Source: Erysipelotrichaceae bacterium (GTDB lineage Bacteria > Bacillota_I > Bacilli_A > Erysipelotrichales > Erysipelotrichaceae). From it: DNA of 15,449 bases. Positions 1,929-15,449 of this stretch are shown here, one piece after another. The number at the start of each line of letters is the position of its first letter. Position 1 is the first letter of the stretch. The stretch covers positions 1-15,449 of the forward strand of contig JAILBD010000057.1 in the NCBI GenBank assembly GCA_024681275.1. The letters are read 5' to 3'. The notes under the pieces are model-generated. The model was not told the origin of the DNA. It saw nothing but the letters and a program-made list of their open reading frames with translations, and made no database searches. Made by a program: the position numbers and the translations under genes.

Positions 1929-1972
1929 AAGCTCCTCCTTATCATGTATGGATGATACTGTTCTTCCCCTTC

Positions 1973-1991
1973 ATTCTATCATCATATAGAA
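1973..1991 (-). promoter_or_regulatory. Candidate GH2 promoter with overlapping inverted repeat
   Basis: Read on the minus strand there is an extended -10 (TG-A-TAGAAT, hexamer at 1973-1978) about 45 bases ahead of the GH2 start codon. No good -35 is visible. An inverted repeat, TTCTAT (1974-1979) and ATAGAA (1986-1991) with a 6-base spacer, overlaps the hexamer and could be a repressor site. Short AT-rich repeats like this also arise by chance. Confidence 0.3.
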
Positions 1992-2009
1992 ATGCACAGA
2001 ACATTTTAC

Positions 2010-2038
2010 TTGACGGGAAAGTCTGTATATTATATACT
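2010..2038 (+). promoter_or_regulatory. Sigma-A type promoter of the DUF4342 gene
   Basis: TTGACG (2010-2015) and TATACT (2033-2038) are separated by exactly 17 bases, which is close to the housekeeping consensus. Transcription would start near 2045, inside the CIRCE element, so HrcA bound there should block initiation. The gene starts at 2081. Confidence 0.75.
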
Positions 2039-2039
2039 T

Positions 2040-2066
2040 TTAGCAGTCTAAGCACTAGAGTGCTAA
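2040..2066 (+). promoter_or_regulatory. CIRCE operator (HrcA binding site)
   Basis: The left arm TTAGCAGTC (2040-2048), a 9-base spacer and the right arm GAGTGCTAA (2058-2066) match the CIRCE consensus TTAGCACTC-N9-GAGTGCTAA with one mismatch (C to G at 2046). It lies directly after the -10 hexamer and over the likely transcription start, where CIRCE normally acts. In Firmicutes HrcA bound to CIRCE represses groESL and dnaK operons and is released on heat stress. Here the only gene downstream is the UBA-like/DUF4342 gene. The right arm runs straight into the AGGAGG ribosome binding site. Confidence 0.85.
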
Positions 2067-2080
2067 AGGAGGGCCAAATC

Positions 2081-2506
2081 ATGAATTTTACGATCAATGA
2101 TGTTGATCAGGTCATCGCCAGGACTAACTGCACATACGAAGAAGCAAAAGAAGCGCTGATCGAAGCAGACGGCGTGGTGATCGACGCGATCATCTACCTG
2201 GAAAACAAGAACAGACCGGGGTCTTTCTTCAGAAGTTTTATGGAAAACTCGGAAAGGACCTCCGAAACGATCAGTGAAAAGATCAGCCAGGCGATCAAGG
2301 AAGGCAAGGCAAACCGCCTTGAAGTACGCGATTCCTCAGGTAAGACCCTGACATCCGTATCTCTCAATACCGGCGCAGCCATCGGTTTCCTGACTCTTGT
2401 CACACAAACAGCACCGCTGGCCTTAGTCTCAGCGCTTGTCGCCAAGTATGGTCTGGGCTGCAGATTCATCCTGATCAGACGCGATGGCAGTGAAGTAAAT
2501 CTTTAG
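2081..2506 (+). CDS. UBA-like / DUF4342 small protein under heat-shock type control
   Basis: This protein has 141 residues. An AAAGGAGG ribosome binding site ends 8 bases before the ATG, and the frame extending further upstream would read through the promoter and CIRCE, so 2081 is the start. Residues 1-43 (INDVDQVIARTNCTYEEAKEAL and on to YLENKN) resemble a UBA-like three-helix domain of the EF-Ts N-terminal kind. A charged linker follows (about 48-78). Residues about 78-141 look like DUF4342, with a beta strand pair, a hydrophobic segment (about 95-122, TGAAIGFLTL and on) and a final strand RFILIRRDG. The hydrophobic stretch could touch or cross a membrane. The biochemical role of the family is unknown. 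The CIRCE operator suggests it belongs to the HrcA stress regulon, perhaps handling misfolded or nascent proteins through the UBA-like part, which is inference. It is monocistronic, with a terminator 6 bases after the stop. Confidence 0.85.
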   Translation: MNFTINDVDQVIARTNCTYEEAKEALIEADGVVIDAIIYLENKNRPGSFFRSFMENSERTSETISEKISQAIKEGKANRLEVRDSSGKTLTSVSLNTGAAIGFLTLVTQTAPLALVSALVAKYGLGCRFILIRRDGSEVNL

Positions 2507-2512
2507 ACCATC

Positions 2513-2562
2513 AAAAAAAGGACCGTCCGCACCTGTATCTGACAGGGACGATGGTCCTTTTT
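2513..2562. terminator. Bidirectional intrinsic terminator between DUF4342 gene and yhf-like operon
   Basis: A run of seven A plus GGACC (2513-2524) pairs with GGTCC plus five T (2553-2562). Inside it GTCC and GGGAC can extend the stem. Each strand therefore ends in a GC-containing stem followed by a U tract. It lies in the 90-base gap between the stop of the plus-strand gene (2506) and the stop of the last minus-strand operon gene (2597), so it should end both transcripts. Confidence 0.8.
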
Positions 2563-2596
2563 CTTTTGTTCATCTTCCTTTTCAGAAGAACGTAAA

Positions 2597-3940
2597 CTAT
2601 ATATCGAGGACTTTTCTGATCGCCTCATCCAGGATGCGGATCACCGTATCCGGACCGGAACGCATCGGATTGATGCGGATCACATACTTCCTGAAGATCG
2701 GATCCTTATCCAGCATGACCTTGGCCACCCTGTAGAAGAGGGACTGCACCTCATAGCGGCTCTCCGATCCGACCGGATAAGGCAGAGCACCCAGCTTCAC
2801 CGCTTCAGCCATGACCTCCTCGGCGATCGGCAGATCCAGTTTCACCAGGATGATCCGCTCTTCCAGATTCGCCTTGACAGCCTTTTCAACATGTGAGACT
2901 TCACCGCTTGAAAGACGATCCGCGATCTGATCGACGCTGCGATCCTGCACAGCCAGCAGGATCGGATTGTTCACCAGGCTCCTGAGCAGCTCGCTCGCTT
3001 CCGGACCCTGCACCTGACCGCCACCGGAATAATTCTGTTCATGGACCTTAGCGATCAGATCTTTTTTGCCGACGACCACGCCGATCCCCGGCAGACCCAG
3101 CAGCTTGAAACCGGAAAAGACCGATGCATCTCCACCGCAGGCCGCACCAAGCTCCCTGACCTTGTTGACCGCATAGTTCTCATCCACGACGATCGGGATA
3201 TCCTGAGCGGTCTTTCTGATCTCCCCGATCAGTTCGATCGTATCATAGGTATCGGAAAGCTGCTGCCTGACCCGCTGTATGTATACGACATCGGCATCCC
3301 GCAGATGTTTCTGAACATCATCAGGATCGTTGAAATCCGCTCTGATGAACTCTGTTCCCATGGCCTCGAAAGTCGTCATGGTCGTCTTGTAGATCGGCGC
3401 ATCGTGGACCAGGACCCTGCTTCCCCGCTTCAGCAAAGCTAGACAGAGAGCCCGTATCGCGCCTGTTCCGCCCCCTCTGACCAGTGCCGCATCCTCGCAG
3501 TGGAAGTATTCGGCCAGGACCTTCTCGACCTCCGCCGTCCTGTGCGGCCTGCCCAGATCCAGACTGCAGCCATAGTCGCCTTCCTTCAGAGCCTCGTAGC
3601 CGTCAAAGTGCCTGTGCATGATATCGACCAGTTCGAACTGCCTTTCGATCGATTCATCAAAGCACATCATCTTCAAAGGATGGCTCACAAAAGGGATGAG
3701 ATCGAGTTGCTTCTTCATGTAGGTTTCACTCAGTTCCCTGATCAAAGCCCTCTTTCCATCCGTGTCACAGCCTTCCTCAGACAGCAGAGCACAGAGACCA
3801 TCGATCTCCTTTGCCAGCCATCCGTTTCCTTCTTCCCTTCTTTCATCCGACTTCAAAAGGATATCCAGATCTTTCAGATACTCATCCAGATACTCGTTCA
3901 GATAGAAATGTTCCCTGCAGTAAGTCGCGATCCTGTTCAT
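2597..3940 (-). CDS. YhfS-like PLP-dependent aminotransferase-fold enzyme, N-terminally extended copy
   Basis: This protein has 447 residues. The start at 3940 overlaps the stop of the preceding hydrolase gene (ATGA), which fits better than a longer frame that would run far into that gene. From about residue 92 it aligns with the other YhfS copy at 6123-7217: FDESIERQFELVDIMHRHF, the PLP phosphate-binding type loop RGGGTGAIR (155-163), HDAPIY, VVDENYAV (Asp near 253), SGFKLLGLPG with the presumed Schiff-base Lys279, YSGGGQVQG, and RINPMRSGPDTV near the end. The first 90 or so residues are an extra, helix-rich, acidic region with no recognised motif, and the other copy lacks them. The YhfS family is a fold-type I PLP group of unknown substrate. 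It is the last gene of the operon. It could be a divergent partner or regulator-like paralogue of the shorter copy, but all visible PLP-site residues are kept. Confidence 0.85.
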   Translation of the reverse strand: MNRIATYCREHFYLNEYLDEYLKDLDILLKSDERREEGNGWLAKEIDGLCALLSEEGCDTDGKRALIRELSETYMKKQLDLIPFVSHPLKMMCFDESIERQFELVDIMHRHFDGYEALKEGDYGCSLDLGRPHRTAEVEKVLAEYFHCEDAALVRGGGTGAIRALCLALLKRGSRVLVHDAPIYKTTMTTFEAMGTEFIRADFNDPDDVQKHLRDADVVYIQRVRQQLSDTYDTIELIGEIRKTAQDIPIVVDENYAVNKVRELGAACGGDASVFSGFKLLGLPGIGVVVGKKDLIAKVHEQNYSGGGQVQGPEASELLRSLVNNPILLAVQDRSVDQIADRLSSGEVSHVEKAVKANLEERIILVKLDLPIAEEVMAEAVKLGALPYPVGSESRYEVQSLFYRVAKVMLDKDPIFRKYVIRINPMRSGPDTVIRILDEAIRKVLDI

Positions 3941-4902
3941 TTTCTCACTCTCAAAAATTCCTTCGGGTTCTCTCTGGTGATCTGATCGATCTGTTCCCAG
4001 GAAAGGCCTGCCTTTCTCAAAAGCGGCAGAGCTGAAGTCAGCAGATGGGAATATCCCCAGCCTCCCCACTTCTTCAGAAGCGTACGGCCGTCGATATCAC
4101 AGGAGATGAAGATCTGCCTGATGTAGCCCTTATCCACAAAATATCTGATCAGTTCAGCCCTCTCTTCGTCATAAGGGAACTTCTGACCGTAATCCATATC
4201 GGCCTCGATCTCAAAGAAGCCCCGCTTTCCGAAACAGTCGAACTGCACAGAGGCACCCTTGCTGAAGATGTATTCATAGTCATCCAGACGCTTCCACAGA
4301 CGGGGATAGACATCCTGATGACCGATGACCACATGGCTCAGGTCTGCCCCTTCCTCTTCAAAGAAAGAAAGCTGTTCCCTGTACATGGTCCCTCTGCCGG
4401 TGTGGGTCGAGATGCCATATCCTGTCTGCGCCGAAGCTCTTCCGGCCGCCCGCAGCACTTTCTCCTCCGTCTCATAGACTCTGTAATTGGAAGAACCGAC
4501 CTCGCCGATGAAACCCGCCCTGATCTTGCCAGGACCTCTTCCTTCCAGAAGCTCCTTTATGATCATGTCCTTGAGCGTATCGATATCCGCTTCCTTCACG
4601 ATCTCAGGAAGTCTTGGCTCCTTGTAGAATCCGGCACCATAGACGATGTTGACACCGCTCTTCTCAGATAGTTCCCTCAATCCTTCGATCCGCTCATCTC
4701 TTTTATCCAAAGGGCAGATCTGCGGCGTGGACATCTCCAGGATGGTGTTTCCGCCGAGATGCCTGTAGTCTTTCAGTTCTTCCAAAACTTCTTCGCTGCA
4801 GCCGTCTCTTTGGCCGTAGAGAAGATGCTCATGCGGAGAGATGAGGCCCAGTTCATCGATGCTTTTCGGTCCCAGGACCGTGTTGACCATTTCCTTCATC
4901 AT
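3937..4902 (-). CDS. Phosphotriesterase-family metallohydrolase, second copy in the operon
   Basis: This protein has 321 residues. It belongs to the amidohydrolase superfamily, phosphotriesterase/PHP branch. The metal ligands are visible in order: HEH (H24, H26), bridging glutamate in GEVG (E134), STHTG (H167), GHQD (H195) and the final aspartate in SCDI (D269). The bridging residue is Glu, as in E. coli PHP, in place of the carboxylated Lys of true phosphotriesterases. Relatives with known activity are mostly lactonases or esterases, so organophosphate hydrolysis should not be assumed. The ATGA overlap with the upstream yhfW-like gene and another with the downstream yhfS-like gene imply translational coupling of the three. 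It differs clearly from the php copy at 9360-10277 (longer N-terminus, different active-site loops such as CPLDKRDE and KKWGGWGYSH), so it probably has another substrate or step. A second ATG follows directly and could be the start. Confidence 0.9.
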   Translation of the reverse strand: MMKEMVNTVLGPKSIDELGLISPHEHLLYGQRDGCSEEVLEELKDYRHLGGNTILEMSTPQICPLDKRDERIEGLRELSEKSGVNIVYGAGFYKEPRLPEIVKEADIDTLKDMIIKELLEGRGPGKIRAGFIGEVGSSNYRVYETEEKVLRAAGRASAQTGYGISTHTGRGTMYREQLSFFEEEGADLSHVVIGHQDVYPRLWKRLDDYEYIFSKGASVQFDCFGKRGFFEIEADMDYGQKFPYDEERAELIRYFVDKGYIRQIFISCDIDGRTLLKKWGGWGYSHLLTSALPLLRKAGLSWEQIDQITRENPKEFLRVRK

Positions 4903-6110
4903 TTGAATTCCCTGTAGAAACTCGTACCGTTCTGTGGTGCTTTCACACCGAAGTAATCACAGACGGAAGCACCCACATCGCTCAGTGTCTTTCTGAGTCC
5001 GACATGGACACCTTTGTAATCCTTATATCTGATGAGCAGAGGCACGCATTCTCTGGTGTGTTTGGAATGACCGATATCCGGATCATTGCCGTGATCCGCC
5101 ATGATGACCAGGAAGTCGTCATCCTTCATCTCATCGAGGATGTATGGCAGTTTGGCATCGGCGATCTCCAGGATCTCCCTGTATCTTGCCGAACTCTGCG
5201 AGTGACCGGCCAGATCGGTCTCCTGTATATTCGTGCAGATGAAACCTTCCTCCATCCTCTTCATCGCCTCTAGCGTCAGATCCATGCATTCAGCAGTCGG
5301 CACACAGGAGATCGAAGTCCCGCCTTCGTTGTGGACGATGTCCGCCACCTTGCCGATCAGCGTGCAGTCGATCCCGCTTTCCGTCAGGATCGTCGGCGCC
5401 TGGACCTTCGGATCGACGCCGTAGCCCAGATGCAGACACTGATAGCCCTGATCGTAGGACTTTGATTTCGCTGAAGCGATACCGATGTATTTCCCTTCTC
5501 TGATCTCCTCTGCCGCATAGAGATCATCCATCGTATTGCCGGTACCGCCGAAGACCACGACCCTTCCGACCGTGACCACTTCCCTGACCTTCCTGGCGAT
5601 CTCCACTTCCTTTTCAAAAGGCATGAAGTCCAGCGGCGCCGTCACGTTGTAGCACATGCCCAGATCAGCTTCCAGATTGTCTGCCACGGTGCAGTACTTG
5701 TCACAGACCACGTAACGAAGGCCTTCGTGTTCGATGATCTCCACCTCATGGCCGCAGTCCTTCAGATGTTTTGCGACGATGTCGACCTTGTACTGGAAAG
5801 GCGTCATCTCCGGATCCTTAGGTCTGGTCCCCATGATCTCCTGATGGCCCATGAACGTGTCGGCACCGAAGTGCGTCAGTTCACTCTTCCCGTAATTGGC
5901 GGAAGCGGAAAACTTCATCCGCTCCGATTCCTTTCCATAGGCGTTCATCAGACCCAGCTTTTCCAGATTGGGCAGATACAGATCGGGATGATCCTTCAAA
6001 ATGGAACCGATCGTGCAGGCCTTTTCATCACCCGGCCTTTTTTCTGCCGCATCCTTCTGGGCACCCATTCCGAAACCATCCAAAACGATAACGATAAATC
6101 TTCTCTTCAT
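4899..6110 (-). CDS. yhfW: YhfW-like phosphopentomutase-family enzyme
   Basis: This protein has 403 residues and belongs to the alkaline phosphatase superfamily, phosphopentomutase-like. The start chosen is the ATG at 6110 (MKRRFIVIVLDG) because GGAG sits 6 bases ahead. An ATG four codons earlier (6122) directly abuts the stop of the preceding gene and is possible. Metal and catalytic residues are present: D11 in LDGFG, T85 in GADTFMGHQE (the residue phosphorylated in phosphopentomutase), TDLAGHS, ADHGNDP and the terminal HSKHTRE. Phosphopentomutases interconvert pentose 1- and 5-phosphates. YhfW itself has no established reaction, and its central cap domain (about 100-250) is what would set the substrate. 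The sequence matches E. coli YhfW along its length, including LSDVGASVCDYF and APQNGTSF near the C-terminus. It is coupled to the php-like gene downstream by an ATGA overlap. Confidence 0.9.
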   Translation of the reverse strand: MKRRFIVIVLDGFGMGAQKDAAEKRPGDEKACTIGSILKDHPDLYLPNLEKLGLMNAYGKESERMKFSASANYGKSELTHFGADTFMGHQEIMGTRPKDPEMTPFQYKVDIVAKHLKDCGHEVEIIEHEGLRYVVCDKYCTVADNLEADLGMCYNVTAPLDFMPFEKEVEIARKVREVVTVGRVVVFGGTGNTMDDLYAAEEIREGKYIGIASAKSKSYDQGYQCLHLGYGVDPKVQAPTILTESGIDCTLIGKVADIVHNEGGTSISCVPTAECMDLTLEAMKRMEEGFICTNIQETDLAGHSQSSARYREILEIADAKLPYILDEMKDDDFLVIMADHGNDPDIGHSKHTRECVPLLIRYKDYKGVHVGLRKTLSDVGASVCDYFGVKAPQNGTSFYREFK

Positions 6111-6122
6111 ATCATTCTCCAT

Positions 6123-7217
6123 CTAAGCAGCTCTTTCGATGCTTTCCCTGAGGACCTCGATGACCGTATCGGCACCGGCCCTGTTGGGATTGATCCTGAT
6201 CATCTTGTCGATCAGACCCGGATCCTTTGCCAGGAAAGTTCCTGACACCTTGTAGAACAAAGGAGCCATCTCATACCTGCTCTCAGCACCGACCGGATTT
6301 GGCAAAGCACCGAGCTTCTCTGCCTGTTTCAGCACCTCCCTGGCATTCTCCTTTTCCAGTTCCACGATCAGGACCTTGGATTGGGCGTTCACGATGCTGC
6401 AGTCTTTCACGCCCCTTACTTCGCCGGCCTTGAGCCTTTCCAGGATCTCCTCACCGCTTCTTGCCTGCACCGCCAGCAAGACCGGCGCATAGACGAGACC
6501 TCTGAGCACATCAAGGGCCTCATGCCCCTGGACCTGGCAGCCGCCGGAATAGTGCATCTGCCGGATCTTTTCGATGTACTCCTTCTTTCCAACAATGACG
6601 CCGATCCCTTCCGGGCCCTGCAGTTTGAAAGCGGAGAAACAGGAGAGGTCTGCACCGCATTCCGTGCCGATCCTTTCGACCTTCATGACGGCATAGTTGT
6701 CATCAGTCAAAACCGGCATCTGCCTCACGCTTCTGATCGCATCGATGACTTCCTTCATCTCATATCTGTCTTCAAGCTGCTGCCTGGAATACTGGACCAA
6801 AGCAGCCCTGATATCGTCGTTTTCGATCAGGACTTTGCGGATCTTCTCCGTATCATTGAAGTCGGCAATCACGGTCTTGAGACCGAGCATCTCGAAACTG
6901 GTCCTCGTCGTCGAATAGACCGGTGCATCGTGGACCAGGATCTTCTCGCCGCTCTTCAGCATGGACGCCAGACCGTAGCGGATCGCGCCAGTTCCCGATC
7001 CCCTCACCAGCATGGCCGCTTCCGCATCAAAAAACTCGGCGATGGCCGCTTCCGCCTTCATCGTCGTCAGAGGCTCATTCTCCGGCTGATGGATACCCAG
7101 ATCCCCGCGGCTCAGCTGTTCGTAGCCGCTGAAATGATGCATGATGCAAGAGACCATCCGGAACTGCTTGTCCATGGCCTCTTCTATGGAAATGCTGCGC
7201 AAAGGATATGCTTTCAT
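6123..7217 (-). CDS. yhfS: YhfS-like PLP-dependent aminotransferase-fold enzyme
   Basis: This protein has 364 residues, the usual YhfS length. The ATG at 7217 has GGAGG 6 bases upstream and begins 12 bases after the stop of the amidase gene. It has a fold-type I PLP layout: RGSGTGAIR (72-80) as the phosphate-binding loop, HDAPVYSTT (96-104), TDDNYAV with the ring-nitrogen Asp (about 172), SAFKLQGPEGIG with the Schiff-base Lys198, YSGGCQVQGHEA, and RINPNRAGADTV near the C-terminus. The reaction of YhfS is unknown. The fold covers transaminases, lyases and sulfur-transfer enzymes, and the GPEGIG motif after the lysine resembles selenocysteine-synthase (SelA)-like members. It is cytoplasmic. It is one of two copies; the other (2597-3940) has a long extra N-terminus. 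Confidence 0.9.
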   Translation of the reverse strand: MKAYPLRSISIEEAMDKQFRMVSCIMHHFSGYEQLSRGDLGIHQPENEPLTTMKAEAAIAEFFDAEAAMLVRGSGTGAIRYGLASMLKSGEKILVHDAPVYSTTRTSFEMLGLKTVIADFNDTEKIRKVLIENDDIRAALVQYSRQQLEDRYEMKEVIDAIRSVRQMPVLTDDNYAVMKVERIGTECGADLSCFSAFKLQGPEGIGVIVGKKEYIEKIRQMHYSGGCQVQGHEALDVLRGLVYAPVLLAVQARSGEEILERLKAGEVRGVKDCSIVNAQSKVLIVELEKENAREVLKQAEKLGALPNPVGAESRYEMAPLFYKVSGTFLAKDPGLIDKMIRINPNRAGADTVIEVLRESIERAA

Positions 7218-7229
7218 ACTGCCTCCATC

Positions 7230-8192
7230 CTATATCTGGTAGCCATCATTGAAATAGCTGTCTATATCCAGAAAATATCTTTCTATCAGTTCATCCTTCA
7301 CATCAGGAATGAACTCAGCCGCCTTGAGCAGTCTTGTCACCTTGTCCCTTCTGCTTTCGCAGATCAGAAGCGTCGCGCAGCCAAGTTCAGTTCCGGGGAT
7401 GCACAGAGCTGTCGCATTCGCCGTGTTGCAGACGCGCAGATAGCCCTTCCCCGACTCCCTCTGTATCCTCTTCGTCCTTTCATCGAAGTGGCCGAAGAGT
7501 GAATCGCCGAAACCATAGAGATCGACCGGCCCCTCTTTCAGGATCAGGACATCGCAATCCTTCAGTATCCCCTCCAGATAGGCGGTCAGCTCAGGTCTTG
7601 GCGCAAAGGCATCCATCAGATCGATGACTTTATGATCGATGCCCGCATAGTATCCATCTGCATATACCGTTCCATATGTTTCCGCAGGAGCGATGCCGAT
7701 CGAATCCCTGATCGCCTTGAACAGGATCTTCCTGTCCCGGGCCATGAAACCCAGCGAATTGCCGGCGATCATCCCATCCGTATTCTTCTTTTGTGCTTGC
7801 GCGCGGTCTTCTTCGATCAGCCTGGAAATGAAACCGTAAATGTTGACGCACATAGCCGGTGCCAGGACAGATCCGCCGCCGTCGTTGCCGATACCCAGTT
7901 CGTTGATCCCGGCAAAGACATTGATCGCCGTACCTGAAGAAGAACCGGACATGTAACGCCCGCTGATCGGATTGATGAGCTGCGTATCGACCGCTCTTCC
8001 GGCCAGCTGTGATTTCTTATCGATCGTATGCAAGGCAAAACCTGTCTGCTCCAGTTTATGCATCAGCGTGTTGGGGATCGAAGAGATGTTCTTGATGCCC
8101 ACCGTGATCTTTCCCTCTTCACAGTCAAAGACCCTGATCACGGAATGATAAGGATCCAGTTTCGCAAGTCTGTGTCTGTCCTGATAGTTCAT
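7230..8192 (-). CDS. Compact amidase-signature family hydrolase
   Basis: This protein has 320 residues. The ATG at 8192 shares one base with the stop of yhfX (TGATG); a longer frame upstream only repeats yhfX sequence in another frame. It carries an amidase signature: SGSSSGTAINVFAGINELG then GNDGGGSVLAPA (82-113). These line up with the family's GSSGG and TDxGGSIR blocks with the correct 24-residue spacing, giving the cis-Ser near S84 and the nucleophile S108. The triad lysine would be K34 in VGIKN. The family is normally 450-500 residues, so this member is short, mainly between the lysine and the serine block and at the C-terminus. It should hydrolyse an amide or ester, releasing ammonia or an amine. 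The E. coli yhf operon has no such gene, so this is an added step here. The second half is divergent, but CIPGTELG fits the family's late conserved block. The substrate is unknown. Confidence 0.8.
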   Translation of the reverse strand: MNYQDRHRLAKLDPYHSVIRVFDCEEGKITVGIKNISSIPNTLMHKLEQTGFALHTIDKKSQLAGRAVDTQLINPISGRYMSGSSSGTAINVFAGINELGIGNDGGGSVLAPAMCVNIYGFISRLIEEDRAQAQKKNTDGMIAGNSLGFMARDRKILFKAIRDSIGIAPAETYGTVYADGYYAGIDHKVIDLMDAFAPRPELTAYLEGILKDCDVLILKEGPVDLYGFGDSLFGHFDERTKRIQRESGKGYLRVCNTANATALCIPGTELGCATLLICESRRDKVTRLLKAAEFIPDVKDELIERYFLDIDSYFNDGYQI

Positions 8193-9367
8193 CACCAGAC
8201 CTCGCTGATCTCTTCTCCCAGAGACGACCAGATGCCGAGCAGTTTCGGTTCGTTCCTGCTGAGACCTTCCACGACCGCCACATGGGACCTCGTCGTGAAG
8301 ATCTGCGTGCGGTACGCAAAGACCGCGCACTTTCCGATTTCAAATGATCCATCGATCTCATAATGATAATCGATCGACTCATCGCTTGGAGCCTGCACCT
8401 TTGCCCTGCGCGCATTTTCCAGATCATCCCCGACAAGGACATTTTCCATATGACCTCTCCGGTAATGTCCGCCGCCATAACAGAAGGATCTTCCCCTGAA
8501 CTGATGCGAGATCTCCGATACGTAGACGTAGGCCGGGATCTCGGGTTCATCGCTGTCTCTATGCAAAGGCGTCGTTCCGGTCAGCCCGTGTCCGGGCTCT
8601 CCGCTGGTCCCATGCAGTTCATGGATCAAAGGGATGCTGGCACAACAGGTCGCCGAAGGCACGTTGATATTGAGATCCTTCAGACCGCATTCTTCCGCGA
8701 TCTTTATGCCCCTCTCCAGAGCCTTCATATTGGCTGTCGGCAATATCGCCTTCTCCTTTTCCGAATACAACAGAGCCGGAAAGACCGTGAGACCGCCGAT
8801 CTTCACGTTGGACAGCTTTTCCGTTCTTTCGATCAGATCCCTGAGCTCACTGCTGGCAAAACCGCCTTCCTGCCCGGAATAGAGCTGTGAATCCGGATCG
8901 CTCAGACGGATCAGGACTTTCTGAGACAGGCCGAGCTTCTTTGCCGTCTCATCGATCTCCCTGATCTTCTCATATGAGTAGACCGTCACATAATCCGGTC
9001 TTTCAGCGATGATCTTTTTCAAAGCCGCCTGCGGGATCTGCACCAGGTGGCCGACATTTGCGATATGCACGCCATGTTCGATCATGCGCAGAGCCTCTTT
9101 GAAGTCGACGGCGATGGCGCCCTTCAGTCCGGCATCCATCAGCCGTTTTGCGATGAGCGGATTCCTGCCGATCTGCTTCAGCATGAAATACAGATCCACC
9201 TGATTGAGATCCGCGACCTCCTTCATCTTTCTTGCGTTTCCTTCGATCGCATCCAGATCCATGATGTAGGTATCCGGCAGTATCTTTCCCTGCCTGTGCA
9301 GATCAAAAGCGCATTCCACAAGAGCCGGATTCCTTTCGATCACCTTGTCCAGGAACACCTCAGCCAC
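8192..9367 (-). CDS. yhfX: YhfX-like PLP-dependent alanine-racemase-fold protein
   Basis: This protein has 391 residues and begins with GTG at 9367, overlapping the end of php by 8 bases, with AAGGA shortly upstream. It matches E. coli YhfX along its whole length: NPALVECAFDLHRQGKI, then MLKQIGRNP with the presumed PLP lysine K64, QIPQAAL, GGLTVFPALLY, PSATCCASIPL, EPGHGLTGTTP, ISHQFRGRSFCYGGGHYRRGH and SIDYHYEIDG. The N-terminal TIM barrel belongs to fold-type III (alanine racemase / D-amino acid aldolase / decarboxylase), with a beta C-terminal domain after about residue 265. It probably racemises, decarboxylates or cleaves an amino-acid-like compound; the real reaction of YhfX is not established. 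It lies between a metallohydrolase and an amidase with overlapping ends, which suggests consecutive steps. Confidence 0.92.
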   Translation of the reverse strand: MAEVFLDKVIERNPALVECAFDLHRQGKILPDTYIMDLDAIEGNARKMKEVADLNQVDLYFMLKQIGRNPLIAKRLMDAGLKGAIAVDFKEALRMIEHGVHIANVGHLVQIPQAALKKIIAERPDYVTVYSYEKIREIDETAKKLGLSQKVLIRLSDPDSQLYSGQEGGFASSELRDLIERTEKLSNVKIGGLTVFPALLYSEKEKAILPTANMKALERGIKIAEECGLKDLNINVPSATCCASIPLIHELHGTSGEPGHGLTGTTPLHRDSDEPEIPAYVYVSEISHQFRGRSFCYGGGHYRRGHMENVLVGDDLENARRAKVQAPSDESIDYHYEIDGSFEIGKCAVFAYRTQIFTTRSHVAVVEGLSRNEPKLLGIWSSLGEEISEVW

Positions 9368-10277
9368 CGATCCTTTCGTTGTCCGCGATCCTTGCCGGAT
9401 TATCGATCAGGAATTTATTGATGATCTCTTCCGGCAGACCTCCTTCGATCATCTTAGGCACGACACTTCCCATGACAGCCAGATAGCCCTGTTTGCCAAA
9501 ACTGGTGAAATAGGTGTGTCTGGAGATGTCATTGGAAAGCAGGAGATGATCGGCATAACCCGCTTCCGCGATCCTGATGGCATTTGCCGCCCTGGCCTCA
9601 TCAGGACAGTAGGCGACCTTCCCGCAGGTATCAAAAGCGATGTTGACGCCGTACTTCAAAATGGAAAGGTGATAGTCCGGATCATCGATCAGATCCTGAT
9701 GGCCGATGATGATCTTATCCGGATCGACACCTCCATTGAGCAGCGTCTCAACGGTCTCTATCGCTGTGTATCTCCCGGTATGGGTCGAGACCGCAAAACC
9801 GGTCTTTTCCGCGGCGATGGCAGCAGCTTCCAGCACTTTCTTTTCATGTCCGAGGAATTCCTTCGGACTGGAAGCGATCTCGCCGATCAGGCCCGCTCTG
9901 ATCCCCGTTCCGTCGATCCCCTCCGTCAGCTCTTTTATAAACAGATCAGCGATCTCCTCTTTATCGGCCCCATCCAGCCAGGCCGGATGATAGTCCGTGA
10001 GGTAGTAGCCGGTCGAACATACGATCTTCAGTCCCGTGATCCCGCTGATCTCTTTCAGTTTTCTCACGTCGCGTCCCAGATCGTTCGTTGTCACTTCAAA
10101 AGCCGCCTGGATCCCCTGATCCATGGCCTTCCTGATCTCCGGGACGACTTCATCCACATCAAAAATAAAAGAATATCCGTCGTGTCTGACCCTGTCCAGG
10201 TCCACGATGAAATGTTCATGAGCCAGGGTCTTTCCCAGCCCGCTTTTTTCTATATCACCTGATACTGTACGAATCAT
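9360..10277 (-). CDS. php: Phosphotriesterase homology protein (PHP)-like metallohydrolase
   Basis: This protein has 305 residues, close to E. coli Php. Its binuclear metal site is complete: HEH (H20, H22), GEI with bridging E133, STHTG (H166), GHQD (H193) and SND (D250). As in E. coli PHP the bridging ligand is glutamate rather than carboxylated lysine. The physiological reaction is unknown; lactone or ester hydrolysis is more likely than phosphotriester cleavage. The ATG at 10277 lacks a clear Shine-Dalgarno sequence, and a 12-bp hairpin ends 10 bases before it, which may limit or control its translation. Its 3' end overlaps yhfX by 8 bases. It is the paralogue of the hydrolase at 3937-4902. 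Confidence 0.92.
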   Translation of the reverse strand: MIRTVSGDIEKSGLGKTLAHEHFIVDLDRVRHDGYSFIFDVDEVVPEIRKAMDQGIQAAFEVTTNDLGRDVRKLKEISGITGLKIVCSTGYYLTDYHPAWLDGADKEEIADLFIKELTEGIDGTGIRAGLIGEIASSPKEFLGHEKKVLEAAAIAAEKTGFAVSTHTGRYTAIETVETLLNGGVDPDKIIIGHQDLIDDPDYHLSILKYGVNIAFDTCGKVAYCPDEARAANAIRIAEAGYADHLLLSNDISRHTYFTSFGKQGYLAVMGSVVPKMIEGGLPEEIINKFLIDNPARIADNERIGG

Positions 10278-10287
10278 ACTCTAAAAT

Positions 10288-10317
10288 ACAGGCATTCCGC
10301 ACATACGGAATGCCTGT
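10288..10317 (-). promoter_or_regulatory. Strong hairpin between yhfU and php (attenuator or processing site)
   Basis: ACAGGCATTCCG (10288-10299) and CGGAATGCCTGT (10306-10317) form a perfect 12-bp stem with a 6-base loop, placed in the 50-base gap 10 bases after the yhfU stop and 10 bases before the php start. On the transcribed (minus) strand it is followed by TATTTTAGAG, a short and broken U run. Full termination is therefore unlikely; partial termination or an mRNA-stability/processing element fits better. It may lower expression of the enzyme genes relative to the transporter genes. Confidence 0.65.
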
Positions 10318-10327
10318 CCTTTCTGAA

Positions 10328-10705
10328 TTATTCCGGCTTTCCTTCGGATCTGTCCAGCAACGCTTTGACAAGTGCAGGAACGACCTGTTCAGTGTGAGTC
10401 TTCACATAACCAAACGCCTTATGTTTCCCGCTGTAGACCATGTGTCTGATCTCTTTTTCATTCGGGCATTTGCCCTGCTTGGAAACGACCAGACAGTTGC
10501 CATAGCCCAGGACCATGATGGCTGTTGCCAGTGAACCGCCGCCGCCTGTCATGCAGCTGCCGAGATAGTAATCGACCTCGCCTGCCTTGACTTTACGGGC
10601 CGCGACCATATCTGGATCGGCCAGAGTCTCGATCTTTCCCTCATATTCCTTGTCGATCAGCTGTTTTGTCTGAGTCGCTGTTAAACCGCAACATTCGATT
10701 TTCAT
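10328..10705 (-). CDS. yhfU: YhfU-like DUF2620 protein
   Basis: This protein has 125 residues and matches E. coli YhfU/DUF2620: MKIECCGLT at the N-terminus, VAARKVKAGEVDYYLGSCMTGGGG (35-57), AIMVLGYGNCLVVSKQGKCPNE and a C-terminal helix. An AGGAGG site lies 7 bases upstream of the ATG. The glycine-rich segment after a short strand suggests a small-ligand-binding alpha/beta fold, but no reaction is known. It follows the transporter gene by 22 bases, and in E. coli the two are also adjacent, so it may be a partner of YhfT. No membrane segment or signal peptide is seen. Confidence 0.9.
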   Translation of the reverse strand: MKIECCGLTATQTKQLIDKEYEGKIETLADPDMVAARKVKAGEVDYYLGSCMTGGGGSLATAIMVLGYGNCLVVSKQGKCPNEKEIRHMVYSGKHKAFGYVKTHTEQVVPALVKALLDRSEGKPE

Positions 10706-10727
10706 AAGAAAGCCTCCTTGTTAAATG

Positions 10728-12038
10728 TTATAAAGTGACGATGCCTAATAAGACAGCAACGTTGTAGAGAAGACCTACTGCAACCGCAGCCAGAGGACCG
10801 ACAGCTGACTTAGGAACTCTCTGACCTGTGACCTCATTGAGCGTGTAGAAGCCGCCGACCATCATCAGACCGACTGCGCCCCAAGTCGCATTACCGGCCA
10901 TGAAAGCACCGATGGTAAGAGCCAACGTCGTGCAGGAGATCATGGCGTCACGGATGTGATCGCCGCACTTTGTCAGTTCAGGGAACTTAGACAGCGCTTT
11001 ACCTAAGAGGCCGAGCAGCTGGATCTCGATGAACTCGACGACGAAACCGGCAACAGGAGCCAGGAACCAGACACCGTCCGGTACCATTGCACCCACCAGC
11101 ATGACGGCTGTGAGACCGACTGCCTGATAGACACCGGTAGCCAGAGCCGTGGAGACGATCAATGGAATGAACGCAAAGATGACACCGATCATCGCCAGAT
11201 AGAAGATGTTCATGTTGCCTTCTGTGATCGCAGAAGCGAGGATGACAGGCTGATAAGCCTGAGCGAGGATCTTGATACCCAAAGCATTCAGACCACCCTG
11301 GATGCACAGATACAGCCAGTTGGATTTGATCCTTTCAGCATTCTTCGTGAACAGGTTCTCTTCTTCTTCCGTCGTTTCAACAGAACCGGAATTCTTGGAA
11401 GCGCCGACTGCGTTGACGACCAGACAGATCATGCCTGCCAGCATGGCGAATGTGTACGGATAGAGTGCAACTGTCGTACCGCCGACAGAAACAGAACCGA
11501 CGACTGTGCAGAAGATGTAGACAAGACCTGTGATGACTGCGGAAATGATGCCCTGCTTAGCACCGAACTGACCCGCGATCGCGATGGACGGATACATGCA
11601 GAAGATCGGAAGGACCGGTCCGGTGATGTTCGTCAGGTCGTTCAGGAAGTTGTAAGGCAGGCCGTTGAAGAACGCACCGATCGCCTGTGTTCCTAAAGCG
11701 CAGAGCAGACCATATGCCGCACCCAAACCTAAAGCAACATACTTGTTAGGTGACCAGGCACCGATACAGTCAGTAGCGATCAGGATCAGGTGGCACGCGA
11801 TCAATCCTGTACCAAGCCACTGGTTGAAACCGGCCATGACCCAGCCGACACCCATGCCGGTTACGACGACTGCGAACTCCGGACGGCTCATTCTGCCTTC
11901 CATCAGTTCCGGGAAGACTGGTCTTGCACCATCGTTGAAGTTAGAGATGCACATGTGGGATAGCAAGCTGCCCCAAGCTGCAATAGCCACAAGAACGATC
12001 GTTCTCAATACTTGTGGAAATACAAAATTAGTAACCAT
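10728..12038 (-). CDS. yhfT: YhfT-like multi-pass membrane transporter
   Basis: This protein has 436 residues, the same size as E. coli YhfT (about 434). It has roughly ten to twelve hydrophobic segments, for example 11-32, 55-72, 78-93, 99-122, 140-155, 163-183, 192-211, 243-260, 281-303, 307-345 and 368-436. A charged loop separates the halves (about 213-242, KNSGSVETTEEEENLF and on). Motifs shared with YhfT include FNDGARPVFPELMEGRMSR (34-52), TALATGVYQAVG and HIRDAM. A GAAGGGG ribosome site precedes the ATG. It most likely imports (or exports) the pathway substrate across the cytoplasmic membrane; mechanism and substrate are unknown. No ATP-binding or PTS partner is encoded in the window, so it is probably a secondary carrier. 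Confidence 0.9.
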   Translation of the reverse strand: MVTNFVFPQVLRTIVLVAIAAWGSLLSHMCISNFNDGARPVFPELMEGRMSRPEFAVVVTGMGVGWVMAGFNQWLGTGLIACHLILIATDCIGAWSPNKYVALGLGAAYGLLCALGTQAIGAFFNGLPYNFLNDLTNITGPVLPIFCMYPSIAIAGQFGAKQGIISAVITGLVYIFCTVVGSVSVGGTTVALYPYTFAMLAGMICLVVNAVGASKNSGSVETTEEEENLFTKNAERIKSNWLYLCIQGGLNALGIKILAQAYQPVILASAITEGNMNIFYLAMIGVIFAFIPLIVSTALATGVYQAVGLTAVMLVGAMVPDGVWFLAPVAGFVVEFIEIQLLGLLGKALSKFPELTKCGDHIRDAMISCTTLALTIGAFMAGNATWGAVGLMMVGGFYTLNEVTGQRVPKSAVGPLAAVAVGLLYNVAVLLGIVTL

Positions 12039-12080
12039 GTTTTTACCCCTTCTTTTTTGTTTATATGTCCAGTCCTTCGA

Positions 12081-12461
12081 TCAGGCGTGCCAATCTCCCT
12101 GTTCTTTGAACTGAGCAATCAGGTTGTTGATATGAAGCAGCGCATAACCCTGCTCCGTCTCATTGAGCGGGTTCTTCGTCACTTCCATGACTCTCTGCAG
12201 GATCTGTTTGGACTCCTCATAGGTATCCAGAGACTCCAGTTCGGCGACGACTTCCTCAGGAAGCTCATCGACCTCCTCCTTGCTGACGAGACGGCCATAG
12301 GCAGCGCAGAGATGGGCGATGAAAGTCCCCGCATTCTCCTCTTCCAGAACGACGCCGTATTCGTTCCTGAACAGATCGACGACCGCATTGATATCCTCGA
12401 TATCCGCGTCGCTGATCATGCCGCCTTCTTTATACAGATCGAGCCTTTCGCTGAAATCCAT
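12081..12461 (-). CDS. yhfY: YhfY-like stand-alone PRD domain protein
   Basis: This protein has 126 residues. It is a single PTS-regulation domain (PRD)-like helical bundle: FIAHLCAAYGRL (47-58) with H50 and ETEQGYALLHINNLI (101-115) with H110 occupy the positions of the two histidines phosphorylated in PRD regulators such as BglG or LevR. There is no DNA- or RNA-binding domain and no EIIA/EIIB part. E. coli has a similar small PRD gene (yhfY) next to yhfZ. It may sense PTS phosphorylation and pass it to YhfZ or the transporter, which is inference. Its ATG shares one base with the stop of the zinc-ribbon gene (TAATG), so the two are translationally coupled. Confidence 0.82.
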   Translation of the reverse strand: MDFSERLDLYKEGGMISDADIEDINAVVDLFRNEYGVVLEEENAGTFIAHLCAAYGRLVSKEEVDELPEEVVAELESLDTYEESKQILQRVMEVTKNPLNETEQGYALLHINNLIAQFKEQGDWHA

Positions 12462-12853
12462 TATCTGAACAGTCCTTTCTTTTTCTGTGTCTTCTGCTTC
12501 CTGATCTCCTTCTTTGTGAACTGCGGCTCATGATACTCTTCGTAGTCAAGTCCGAATATCCTGTCCGTCAGGATCAGACAGACATGATCGGAATAGCTCG
12601 CCAGCAGCACAGCCAGCGACATCACCGCGATCAGGATCAGAAATGTTCCCTGAGAAGCGAAGCTCAGACCAAAAGCCAGGACCAGACAGACCGCCAGAAC
12701 GAAGAAATAACGCACGATCTTGAACCTCTTCTGAGAGTCCTGCGTGATCCTCATCTTCTGGTGACAGTGGCTGCAGGAGATGATCTCCTTCAGGTCCTTT
12801 CCCGACAGATCGTACTCCTTGCCACAGCGATAGCATTTGATGGCTTCTTTCAT
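12461..12853 (-). CDS. Zinc-ribbon protein with two membrane segments, function unknown
   Basis: This protein has 130 residues from the ATG at 12853; a TTG four codons earlier is possible but has no ribosome site. The N-terminus carries CYRCGKEY (C7, C10) and CSHCHQK (C27, C30), a four-cysteine zinc ribbon. Two hydrophobic segments follow (about 48-66 and 69-88), so the protein is probably membrane-anchored with the zinc ribbon and the very basic C-terminal tail (KKEIRKQKTQKKK, 114-126) in the cytoplasm. No matching gene is recalled in the E. coli yhf locus. It lies between yhfZ and yhfY and overlaps yhfY by one base, so it may belong to the regulatory part of the operon or may simply be a hitchhiking gene. 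No function is proposed. Confidence 0.75.
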   Translation of the reverse strand: MKEAIKCYRCGKEYDLSGKDLKEIISCSHCHQKMRITQDSQKRFKIVRYFFVLAVCLVLAFGLSFASQGTFLILIAVMSLAVLLASYSDHVCLILTDRIFGLDYEEYHEPQFTKKEIRKQKTQKKKGLFR

Positions 12854-12885
12854 CTCAATATCCAATTTTTTGTATTTTCAATATC

Positions 12886-12914
12886 AGTTTATAACGATTT
12901 ACCCTGCTTGTAAA
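12886..12914 (-). promoter_or_regulatory. Candidate internal promoter between yhfZ and the zinc-ribbon gene
   Basis: In the 79-base gap after yhfZ, the minus strand shows TTTACA (12909-12914) and TAAACT (12886-12891) with a 17-base spacer. The -35 matches five of six consensus positions and the -10 four of six; TATAAA overlaps the second hexamer. It would start transcription roughly 25 bases before the zinc-ribbon ATG, so the structural operon could be transcribed apart from yhfZ. Confidence 0.4.
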
Positions 12915-12932
12915 CCCTTGCATGAAACTTTA

Positions 12933-13853
12933 TCAGTAACGCGGTATGATCCTGCCTTCCAGGACGTCCTTCTGTATCCTGAGCACCATTTCCGTATCGA
13001 TCATCTCCTTCAGCAGATGACCGATCTCCCTGTGCTCCAGCGAAGAGACCACGACCGCTTCCGTTTTGTCAAAACTGTAGTCTTCAATCTCGACATAATG
13101 GATCGCCACATTCTTGTCCAGGACCTCATCGATGTTCATGACTGCCGCATCGATGTCTCCGCTCCTGACATGCTCGATCATCTTTGAATATTCCACCGGC
13201 ACGAAATCTGCTTTTCTGTTCTCACAAAGTTTTCTTGTCAGCTCGGTCTGATCGTAGGACGTCTCATCGATACCGACTTTCATCCCATCCCCGATCTCAT
13301 CGGCCCCTTCATCGTGAAGCATCAGCACATGCTTGCCCGTATAGGATTCCCTGCCGAAACTCAGCACGATCTCCAGACTCTTCTTTTCACCGATGTAGCG
13401 CTCAGCGGCAAAACGGGAAACGATCGCAAAATCATAGCGGTCGGAATCGACCATCTCCATCCTGCTCTTGGCACCGCGCATATAAGCCAGATTCAAAGGC
13501 GCGATATCCTGTTTCTCTCCGGAAGCGATGATACCGGAAGCCAGCCCTTCGTAGCGCCGTGAATAAGGAAGCGGCATGGCCCCGATCAGGTAACTGATCC
13601 CGGCGAATTCCAGGAGGATGGAACTGTTCTTCTCTGTCAGAAAAGAACCCATGTGGCCTCTGGGACCGATGCTGACAGCACCGGCATTGATCAGGTTCTT
13701 CAAAGCGTTCTGTATCGTCCCCCTTGCGAGATGGATCCGATCAGAGAATTCCGTGATCGTCGGGATCCTGTCTCCGACCTCATAACTCAGCAATTCCCTG
13801 GAAAGCTTCAAAGTCGCTGTGCCGTTTTTGCTCAAAAGTTGTTCCTGTATCAT
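12933..13853 (-). CDS. yhfZ: YhfZ-like GntR-type transcriptional regulator with ligand-binding domain
   Basis: This protein has 306 residues from the ATG at 13853. A TTG 25 codons further upstream keeps the frame open but would place the start inside the divergent promoter region, and E. coli YhfZ begins at the equivalent of the ATG. Residues about 12-75 form a winged helix (IPTITEFSDRIHLARGTIQNAL as recognition part, then INAGAVSIGPRGHMGSFL as wing). The rest (about 85-306) resembles the YhfZ substrate-binding-protein-like sensor: AMPLPYSRRYEGLASG, LAYMRGAKSRMEM, DFAIVSRFAAERYIG, GIDETSYDQTELTRKLC, VRSGDIDAAVMN. It should bind DNA as a dimer and respond to a pathway metabolite. It is the first gene of the yhf-like operon and diverges from the adenosine deaminase gene, so the 109-base gap is its likely operator region. 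Confidence 0.9.
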   Translation of the reverse strand: MIQEQLLSKNGTATLKLSRELLSYEVGDRIPTITEFSDRIHLARGTIQNALKNLINAGAVSIGPRGHMGSFLTEKNSSILLEFAGISYLIGAMPLPYSRRYEGLASGIIASGEKQDIAPLNLAYMRGAKSRMEMVDSDRYDFAIVSRFAAERYIGEKKSLEIVLSFGRESYTGKHVLMLHDEGADEIGDGMKVGIDETSYDQTELTRKLCENRKADFVPVEYSKMIEHVRSGDIDAAVMNIDEVLDKNVAIHYVEIEDYSFDKTEAVVVSSLEHREIGHLLKEMIDTEMVLRIQKDVLEGRIIPRY

Positions 13854-13918
13854 ATGATGATCTGCCTGAATATTATCGCTATCTTTATCATAATACAGTT
13901 TCCCGTATATTGGCTCCA

Positions 13919-13930
13919 CTTTGATCAAAG
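13919..13930. promoter_or_regulatory. Palindrome CTTTGATCAAAG in the divergent yhfZ/add gap
   Basis: A perfect 12-base palindrome lies in the gap between the yhfZ and adenosine deaminase genes, ending 4 bases before the candidate -10 of the deaminase promoter. That is a normal place for a repressor operator. YhfZ is the nearest regulator, so self-regulation with control of the divergent gene is possible. The link to YhfZ is inferred from position only. Confidence 0.4.
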
Positions 13931-13931
13931 A

Positions 13932-13940
13932 TGGTAGAAT
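13932..13940 (+). promoter_or_regulatory. Extended -10 promoter of the adenosine deaminase gene
   Basis: TG-G-TAGAAT (hexamer 13935-13940) is an extended -10 element, 22 bases ahead of the deaminase ATG. The best -35 is TTGGCT (13910-13915) at a 19-base spacing, which is weak. The ribosome site AAGGAGG (13952-13958) follows. Confidence 0.5.
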
Positions 13941-13962
13941 AAATGCGAATGAAGGAGGATAT

Positions 13963-14970
13963 ATGATCTATCCAAAAGTTGAACTGCATTGCCACATGGA
14001 CGGAGCGATGCCCTACCGCCTTTTTGCCAGATACTGCCGCGAAGACGGACTTGTTCCGGAAAACATGACCGATGAAGAATGGATCAGTCATCATGTCATG
14101 ACCGAGACCATGACCCTGACTGAATGCATGGGCGAATTCGCCATCCTCACCGGCATCCTCCAGAAAGAGGAACGTCTGGAAGAACTCACATATGAACTGC
14201 TGAAAGACATGTATGCAGCCGGCACCAGACTCGCCGAGATCCGCTTCTCTCCGCAGTCCCACATCAATGAACACATGTCCATGGACCAGGCTGTGGCAGC
14301 CGTTTTGAGAGGACGGAAAAGAGCCATGGCAGAACTGCCGGACATGGTCAGCGGCATCATCCTTTGCATGATGAACCTCGGCCTCAATCTGGGCACCATG
14401 GAAAACAACAAAAAGACCGTTGAACTGGCAGCGAAATACAAAGACGAAGGCGTCGTCGCCATCGACCTGGCCGGAGACGAGACCGCGACACCGATCGAGA
14501 TCTACGCGCCTCTGTTTGAATACGCCAGATCCTTAGGCGTCCATTACACGATACACGCCGGGGAATCCGGACCGGCATCGAACGTCGCCTTCGCGATCAG
14601 ACAGGGCGAAAAGCGGATCGGCCACGGCATCCACAGCATCGAAGACGAGGAAGTCGTCAAAGAGCTGATCAGGCAGGGCGTCGTTTTGGAGGTCTCCGTC
14701 ACATCCAACTACTTCTCCCGCTGCGTCTCCTCCATCGAGGAACACCCGATCAGGAAGCTCTGGGACAAAGGCGTCATGATCAACATTAACACCGACGATC
14801 CGGGTCTCATGGGCATCACGCTCCAGCACGAATACGACATCATCGCGAAACACTTCGGCTTCACGGAAAAGGAATTCATCCTCTCCAACCTCTATGCCGC
14901 AAGAAGCTCCTTCTGTCCGGACCGGACAAAGATCATCGAAGAGCTGACCCGAGCCTTCAGGGAATGCTAG
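13963..14970 (+). CDS. add: Adenosine deaminase family protein
   Basis: This protein has 335 residues, the normal length for bacterial adenosine deaminase. The ATG at 13963 has AAGGAGG 4 bases upstream. The metal and catalytic residues are all visible: HCHMDG (H9, H11), DLAGDE (169-173), TIHAGE (H198 metal ligand, E201 proton shuttle), RIGHG (H221) and NTDDP (D278, D279). It should hydrolyse adenosine and deoxyadenosine to inosine and ammonia in the cytoplasm. The substrate-recognition residues cannot be fully judged, so adenine deaminase or an aminodeoxyfutalosine-type deaminase is not excluded. It diverges from yhfZ and its last codons lie just ahead of the LCP-like gene, probably in one transcript. 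Closeness to a phosphopentomutase-like gene (yhfW) is suggestive of nucleoside metabolism but may be chance. Confidence 0.88.
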   Translation: MIYPKVELHCHMDGAMPYRLFARYCREDGLVPENMTDEEWISHHVMTETMTLTECMGEFAILTGILQKEERLEELTYELLKDMYAAGTRLAEIRFSPQSHINEHMSMDQAVAAVLRGRKRAMAELPDMVSGIILCMMNLGLNLGTMENNKKTVELAAKYKDEGVVAIDLAGDETATPIEIYAPLFEYARSLGVHYTIHAGESGPASNVAFAIRQGEKRIGHGIHSIEDEEVVKELIRQGVVLEVSVTSNYFSRCVSSIEEHPIRKLWDKGVMININTDDPGLMGITLQHEYDIIAKHFGFTEKEFILSNLYAARSSFCPDRTKIIEELTRAFREC

Positions 14971-14972
14971 AA

Positions 14973-15443: not shown

Positions 15444-15449
15444 ACAAAA

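Follow-up and report, generated by a model that had tools for sequence, protein, structure and literature searches.

An enlarged yhf operon in an Erysipelotrichaceae bacterium and its possible part in the breakdown of amino-sugar conjugates

We analysed a 15,449-nucleotide stretch of DNA from an Erysipelotrichaceae bacterium (contig JAILBD010000057.1 of assembly GCA_024681275.1, positions 1 to 15,449, hereafter the window) that carries an enlarged version of the yhf operon of Escherichia coli. Twelve minus-strand genes run from position 13853 to 2597 in the 5' to 3' order Z, zr, Y, T, U, P1, X, Am, S1, W, P2, S2, where zr is a zinc-ribbon membrane protein, Am an amidase, P1 and P2 are php1 and php2, and S1 and S2 are yhfS1 and yhfS2 (Table 1). 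As a preliminary description of this DNA had it, the genes are consecutive and comprise yhfS, T, U, php, W, X, Y and Z plus four further genes. That description also correctly noted gene ends overlapping by 1-8 bases, which occur at five of the 11 junctions; one further junction abuts and five are gaps of 12-79 bases. The E. coli K-12 yhfS-yhfZ operon (b3376-b3383) likewise has Z, Y, X, W, php, U, T and S homologues in one direction, but its gene order differs and it lacks the amidase, the zinc ribbon, P2 and S2. YhfS2 is 47% identical to YhfS1, from residue 86 onward.

Table 1. Coordinates of the operon genes and adjoining features in the window
Feature	Position	Strand	Evidence
yhfZ, GntR/HTH_41-type regulator with YhfZ C-terminal ligand domain	12933..13853	-	NF041241 365.3 bits vs cut-off 260; PF14503; PDB 2OZZ relative; ATG at 13853
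Zinc-ribbon membrane protein	12461..12853	-	CxxC + CxxC in 18/18 homologues; hydrophobic stretches by eye; TIGR04104 below cut-off
yhfY, stand-alone PRD domain	12081..12461	-	PF00874; His50 invariant
yhfT, membrane protein, presumed importer	10728..12038	-	PF10797 324.4 bits
yhfU (DUF2620), RpiB/LacAB-fold, invariant Cys51	10328..10705	-	
php1 (Php), phosphotriesterase-family metal hydrolase	9360..10277	-	PF02126 205.7 bits
yhfX, fold-type III pyridoxal-phosphate (PLP) enzyme	8192..9367	-	PF21279 + PF01168; PDB 4KBX YhfX 2.6e-96
Amidase, short amidase-signature hydrolase, Lys-Ser-Ser triad	7230..8192	-	PF01425 36.9 vs 27 bits
yhfS1, fold-type I PLP enzyme	6123..7217	-	PF22475 140.4 bits; PDB 4J8L YhfS 5.6e-117
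yhfW, phosphopentomutase-like metalloenzyme	4899..6122	-	NF009049 555.6 vs 254 bits
php2, second phosphotriesterase-family hydrolase	3937..4902	-	PF02126 171.3 bits; 32% identity to php1; separate clade
yhfS2, second YhfS-type PLP enzyme, N-terminal extension of ~85 residues	2597..3940	-	PF22475 118.9 bits; separate clade
Terminator-like hairpin and T run, behind S2 and before a plus-strand gene	2507..2555		Read by eye
Intergenic region, 109 bp, between yhfZ and the divergent adenosine deaminase gene	13854..13962		
Adenosine deaminase, divergent from yhfZ	13963..14970	+	TIGR01430 250.8 vs 216.55 bits

We determined how widespread this gene set is by comparing the window with ~130 loci from relatives, found with YhfT as the query. 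Gene content was counted over 117 loci, after L132, L133, L134, L161 and L162 had been removed as repeats of other loci; some loci stop at contig edges, so absences are upper bounds, and the short loci L082-L123 stand outside the gene-order counts. Compared across Firmicutes and enterobacteria, the neighbourhood is conserved across phyla, being kept from Erysipelotrichia to Fusobacteriota, Enterobacterales and Vibrionales. The window belongs to this operon family, as it has the co-oriented U, T, X, W and php core together with Z and Y. Its closest YhfT relatives in the genome collection (89-94% identity) come from metagenome-assembled genomes of ruminant Erysipelotrichaceae. The operon core was found in 5036 of 5426 complete E. 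coli genomes, in 5014 of them with coverage of at least 80%. Among viral contigs, none of 46 pattern matches encoded YhfT. A Bacillus genome (L070/L161) carries three yhfT genes; the second belongs to a U-T-S set lying past nagB and yhfZ, the third to a Y-U-T set on the opposite side.

The four genes that had been described as extras differ in their distribution. The zinc-ribbon gene (18/117 loci) and the P2-S2 pair (7/117), whose members form deep separate clades, are indeed local. In Holdemania (L014-L016) the set occurs but P2-S2 is missing. The amidase gene is not a local extra, because it is present in 44 of the 117 loci, 43 of them with yhfS, and it is a widespread part of the Gram-positive and fusobacterial version of the operon.

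The catalytic residues of the operon's enzymes are intact. Our counts cover homologues that were labelled by phmmer and fell inside set length limits, and we presume the roles of the residues in YhfW, Php, YhfX, YhfS, the amidase, YhfY and YhfU from known families. Among 111 YhfW homologues the nucleophile is Thr in 98 and Ser in 13, and the six metal-ligand positions are kept in all. We ruled out that YhfW lacks the phosphopentomutase nucleophile, since Thr85, the first Thr of DTMTGH, is kept (hand count in the printed alignment). YhfW passes NF009049, a model itself named phosphopentomutase, and scores below the curated cut-off of the phosphopentomutase DeoB model TIGR01696 (153.1 vs 341.2 bits). 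The metal ligands and nucleophile of DeoB are thus retained, but the conserved YhfW residues D148-N149-E151-D153-G155-N159 are unlike the aligned stretch of the Bacillus cereus enzyme, which we take to be sugar-binding.

Php1 homologues keep the metal-ligand positions of PF02126 in 122-123 of 123 sequences, with Glu as the bridging acid; these counts cover php1 homologues, and php2 was placed by its PF02126 match. Lys64 is present in 123/123 YhfX homologues, whose N-terminal domain is of the alanine-racemase type. YhfS homologues have Lys198 and Arg341 in 97/97 and are weakly similar to the SelA and gamma-lyase groups. Lys80, Ser130, Ser132 and Ser154 of the amidase (numbering of the 366-aa open reading frame) are kept in 45/45 homologues; with the triad K80-S132-S154 and a score above the PF01425 cut-off it is a member of the signature family, and amide hydrolysis is its predicted activity. 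The small PRD protein YhfY keeps His50, Arg57 and Glu103 in 121/121 homologues, His50 presumably being the His of the PRD phosphorylation motif. Deposited structures exist for YhfS, YhfX, Php and YhfZ.

The fold of YhfU is that of the RpiB/LacAB sugar-phosphate isomerases, and the loop that matches theirs holds an invariant Cys. Gly49, Cys51, Gly54, Gly56, Phe98 and Gly99 are present in 131/131 homologues, and Cys51 aligns with the Cys of the RpiB CGTGxG loop, which we take to be catalytic. YhfU thus shares with these isomerases both the fold and the C-x-[TS]-G-x-G loop, but its sequence match is below the Pfam cut-off: the best score against PF02502 was 13.6 bits (E. coli YhfU, the one of five YhfU proteins listed) vs 24.7. 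In YhfU we did not recognise the His that opens the ring in RpiB or the Arg that binds phosphate there, for which no formal test was made.

To survey the genes adjoining the operon in other genomes, we took all genes that lie on the same strand no more than three positions and 300 bases from one of 130 loci, added the genes inside the operon, and clustered them without prior choice; L186 was left out as the same locus as L053. The enterobacterial neighbours trpS, gph and rpe and one gene in seven Yersinia loci are accounted for by chromosomal synteny. Beyond synteny, the recurrent clusters were a PBP4B-like hydrolase (12 loci), the glucosamine-6-phosphate deaminase NagB (10), a Cof-type HAD protein (six) and a HisJ-like PHP protein (four). 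Five more clusters occurred in three loci each: a protein with a CBM5/12 module (L041, L062, L074), a glucose-family phosphotransferase system (PTS) protein (L127, L157, L158), a nucleoside hydrolase (L175-L177), one Holdemania cluster, which gave no match to NCBIfam, and one Yersinia cluster. M42 peptidases lie near three loci, yet in fewer than three under the stricter neighbour rule, and the same holds for MATE, NUDIX and GNAT proteins.

NagB is encoded next to the operon in L053, L070, L128, L129, L140, L149, L179, L180, L184 and L185. All ten linked proteins score over the TIGR00502 cut-off and keep D72, H143, E148, R172 and K208, and each host genome has at least one further copy over the cut-off. 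In ten comparison genomes with yhf, NagB was over the same cut-off in eight, with two copies in G1115 and G493. These ten, like the 66 genomes searched below for enzyme I (EI) of the PTS, were chosen by hand from YhfT-carrying genomes, and their loci were read in part; both counts rest on yhf-carrying genomes other than the window's host. Position 141 is Asn in 9/10 linked and 14/18 unlinked copies. For a phylogenetic analysis 20 unlinked nagB genes were taken, of which L192 and L198 were dropped because they had no long open frame. In the tree of 29 sequences, the linked label needs five changes, at least two of them forced by starred branches; two rows, of which L184 is a linked copy, were flagged for their sequence composition. 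A single clade of linked NagB was rejected (approximately unbiased test, p 4.7e-61). As the linked proteins are not one clade, nagB has been placed beside the yhf operon more than once. Of the evidence that hexosamine-6-phosphate may be an exit product, this repeated recruitment is the strongest.

The most frequent neighbour is a beta-lactamase-fold hydrolase resembling PBP4B, found in 12 of the 130 loci (direct phmmer hits in 11, clustering in L140). Its score stays under the PBP4B cut-off (254 vs 385 bits), the SxxK motif is kept, and the N-termini resemble signal peptides by eye; the protein at L154:7171-8394 and its homologues look like exported serine hydrolases of PBP4B/YfeW type. In five of 15 fusobacterial loci (L154, L155, L157, L159 and L163) its gene lies between php and yhfS, a slot held by the amidase gene in L125 and L126. 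Eight of these 15 loci have the amidase, five the PBP4B-like gene in the slot and two neither, while L130 and L140 carry both. Because the PBP4B-like gene occupies the amidase slot and its product looks exported, the two hydrolases may cut the same bond, one outside and the other inside the cell.

Other neighbours agree with amino-sugar use. Directly upstream of yhfZ and on the same strand, L157 and L158 encode N-acetylmannosamine-6-phosphate epimerase (nanE; NF002231 307.4 vs 189 bits in L158), a PTS IIBC protein of the glucose/N-acetylglucosamine family (409.9 vs 553.2 bits on the N-acetylglucosamine model, and so below its cut-off) and YhcH. In the Photobacterium loci L062, L073 and L074 the operon has PTS genes of the lactose/cellobiose/chitobiose family nearby; in two of them, L062 and L074, yhfW is followed by the CBM5/12-module protein. 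L127 has a glucose-family PTS with a LicT-type antiterminator.

The operon is ordinary in kind, that is, catabolic. The explanation we favour is that it takes up and breaks down an amino sugar conjugated to an amino acid or acyl group and processed in the form of a sugar phosphate, ending in hexosamine-6-phosphate; we put this at a probability of roughly 0.4, a figure that covers the amino-sugar class. We infer every reaction, the order of the reactions and the class of substrate. YhfT, with YhfU, would import the compound, and the amidase, or elsewhere the apparently exported PBP4B-like hydrolase, would cleave an amide or ester. Php would then take off an acyl group or open a lactone. Its removal of an acyl or amino-acyl group is suggested by likeness to PTER, a phosphotriesterase relative that passages of PMC11374699 describe as an N-acetyltaurine hydrolase acting on an N-acetyl amide. 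YhfX and YhfS would work on the amino-acid part, YhfS probably via elimination. As a parallel, the Salmonella D-glucosaminate pathway has, according to passages of PMC9529869, a PLP ammonia-lyase that acts on an amino-sugar-acid phosphate, D-glucosaminate-6-phosphate. That pathway, however, relies on DgaABCD, a canonical PTS, and on the aldolase DgaF, and neither is in the window's operon. YhfW may shift phosphate on the sugar, from a 1-phosphate to a 6-phosphate type, and the resulting hexosamine-6-phosphate would become fructose-6-phosphate through deamination by NagB. YhfZ would act as the regulator, coupled to the PTS by YhfY.

Several observations weigh against this explanation. A sugar kinase is not among the operon genes, and the chemistry of YhfX is unassigned. 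The gene yhfW is absent from six of seven Yersinia loci, yhfS is absent from the Vibrio and Photobacterium loci and from L027-L030, and L135 has a YhfT relative without the remaining yhf genes. Linkage to nagB is limited to 10 of 130 loci and linkage to nanE to two. Moreover, a Bacillus yhf cluster in which yhfS was not found (L160, 5150-7035) contains a ribulose-phosphate epimerase and a GlmS-like SIS protein, in three Bacillales genomes (L175-L177) a nucleoside hydrolase is encoded beside the PBP4B-like genes that adjoin yhf or between them, and an adenosine deaminase gene stands beside the operon in the window. The preliminary description had called the system complete. The conserved set of catabolic-type genes bears out the catabolic part of this claim. 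Its completeness is not supported, because the twelve genes include neither a kinase nor a canonical PTS component, though YhfW resembles a sugar-phosphate enzyme, and because other genomes have nagB, amino-sugar PTS genes or the gene of the PBP4B-like hydrolase next to the operon.

The epimerase of L160, the nucleoside hydrolases and the adenosine deaminase would suit salvage of an amino-acid-modified ribose or nucleoside, in which YhfW would act as a genuine phosphopentomutase and YhfU would isomerise pentose phosphates. YhfW is indeed closest to phosphopentomutases and YhfU has the fold of RpiB, but YhfW stays under the DeoB cut-off given above, and nagB is linked in ten loci against three for the nucleoside hydrolase. 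As a linked partner we rejected the adenosine deaminase, a relative of which was labelled near one other locus only (L073). We consider such pentose salvage unlikely, if the least so of the alternatives. A little less likely again is turnover of cell wall or D-amino acids, in which the PBP4B-like hydrolase outside the cell, or the amidase inside it, would cut a conjugate from peptidoglycan or D-alanylated polymers, and YhfX would be a racemase. The recurrence of the PBP4B-like gene, including its slot between php and yhfS, and the alanine-racemase N-terminal domain of YhfX speak for this, and NagB would handle the glucosamine part. However, most loci lack that hydrolase, which falls short of the PBP4B cut-off, and no muropeptide enzyme is found among the identified recurrent neighbour clusters (one Holdemania and two Yersinia clusters had no family assignment). 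The operon might also serve to detoxify or repair a glycated or damaged metabolite instead of using a nutrient. Its presence in most complete E. coli genomes and the GlmS-like SIS protein of L160 would fit this role, but an operon with its own regulator, importer and PRD protein suits nutrient uptake, and a deaminase feeding glycolysis has been recruited repeatedly; we consider detoxification improbable.

Within the amino-sugar explanation, the route of uptake deserves separate consideration. YhfY (His50), YhfU (Cys51) and YhfT could form a PTS-like phosphorelay importer built from families other than enzyme II, with phosphate coming from EI and HPr, moving from the His by way of the Cys to the membrane protein, and the phosphorylated sugar passing to YhfW and NagB; we regard such a relay as very improbable. 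A related arrangement occurs in a sister cluster, SFCGS-DUF4312-DUF4311-DUF4310-KDGP aldolase, which like yhf combines a small PRD protein and membrane proteins with a soluble, RpiB-like protein rich in Cys and Gly. A SelA-like PLP enzyme and an amidohydrolase join the cluster in L187 and L190. It differs from yhf in having a KDGP aldolase and no X or W, and its DUF4310 and DUF4311 proteins have no detectable relation to YhfT, so that we rejected YhfT as their relative. In hhalign the Cys loops of YhfU and SFCGS pair with each other (E 0.0029, Prob 10.6); SFCGS matches PF02502 with E 0.033, and one YhfU matches PF14272 with E 0.019. The L187 PRD protein is below its cut-off (21.3 vs 23 bits), and the L188 cluster was read by eye only. 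If the relay existed, the sister cluster would be a possible second branch of this importer type. Against PTS proteins themselves the scores were weak: YhfU gave E 0.092 with SgcB and 0.067 with UlaB, the latter over 15 residues of the Cys loop, and YhfT gave 0.047 with SgcC (Prob 1.1) and 0.3 with UlaA. With the unrelated AlsC YhfT gave 0.37, and these scores lend no notable support to YhfT as an EIIC relative.

In favour of the relay, both the window's operon and the L187 cluster lack a kinase and a canonical PTS, despite their sugar-phosphate-type enzymes. No PTS genes were recognised by eye in the L187, L188 and L190 stretches, and it is because a PTS is missing around the sister cluster that a PTS-like role for a PRD protein, a Cys protein and a membrane protein comes into question. 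L189 weakens this argument, as a mannose-family PTS IIA/IIB/IIC/IID set lies on the opposite strand 4-7 kb from its sister cluster. Canonical PTS genes stand beside yhf in L062, L073, L074, L127, L157 and L158, so phosphate could come from there or from the set near L189, and the role of the PRD in YhfY may be only regulatory. EI (TIGR01417) was over its cut-off in 64 of 66 genomes with yhf, the exceptions being G002 and G490. In the sampled phylum of one Clostridia locus, 93 of 249 genomes had EI over the cut-off, and of the yhf genomes in this phylum 12 of 12 had it (p 8e-6 against all sampled genomes of the phylum). A control gene for a PTS-independent sugar, araA, also tracks EI (20/26), and the difference between yhf and araA genomes is not significant (Fisher p 0.083). 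The EI association therefore agrees with PTS dependence but falls short of showing it.

At the borders of the operon, the 109-bp intergenic region upstream of yhfZ is likely its control region. A search for an operator motif upstream of yhfZ found 10-base perfect palindromes common to at most three of 121 regions, and an Rfam scan of the window gave nothing at gathering cut-offs. The adenosine deaminase gene is followed by a gene for 159 aa (14964-15443) with only a sub-threshold LytR/CpsA match. Past the other end lie a small DUF4342 protein (1952-2506, plus strand), with a weak NAC-like match toward its N-terminus, and a glycoside hydrolase family 2 gene of beta-glucuronidase/galactosidase type (3-1928, minus strand) that continues past the window edge.

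The searched literature, which covered few subscription papers or preprints, contained no report that assigns a function to the yhf operon. In passages of these sources, yhfW appears in a metabolic-model gap fill (E 0.47; PMC3423039) and YhfW in a protein list (PMC7730263), yhfZ in a list of peptide-resistance knockouts (PMC12147183), and DUF2620 and YhfX in a list of Lactobacillus rhamnosus clade-specific genes (PMC7513527); a riboswitch prediction table (PMC4448311) has a further E. coli mention. As the preliminary description suggested, the version in the window helps to read the E. coli locus; the gene set is conserved and the neighbourhood kept across phyla. The comparison yields three handles: the RpiB/LacAB fold of YhfU, hexosamine-6-phosphate as the probable exit, and two apparently interchangeable upstream hydrolases. 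Together these point an orphan operon of E. coli in a concrete chemical direction for the first time, and they raise the question of whether a PTS-like importer exists beyond the known enzyme II families.

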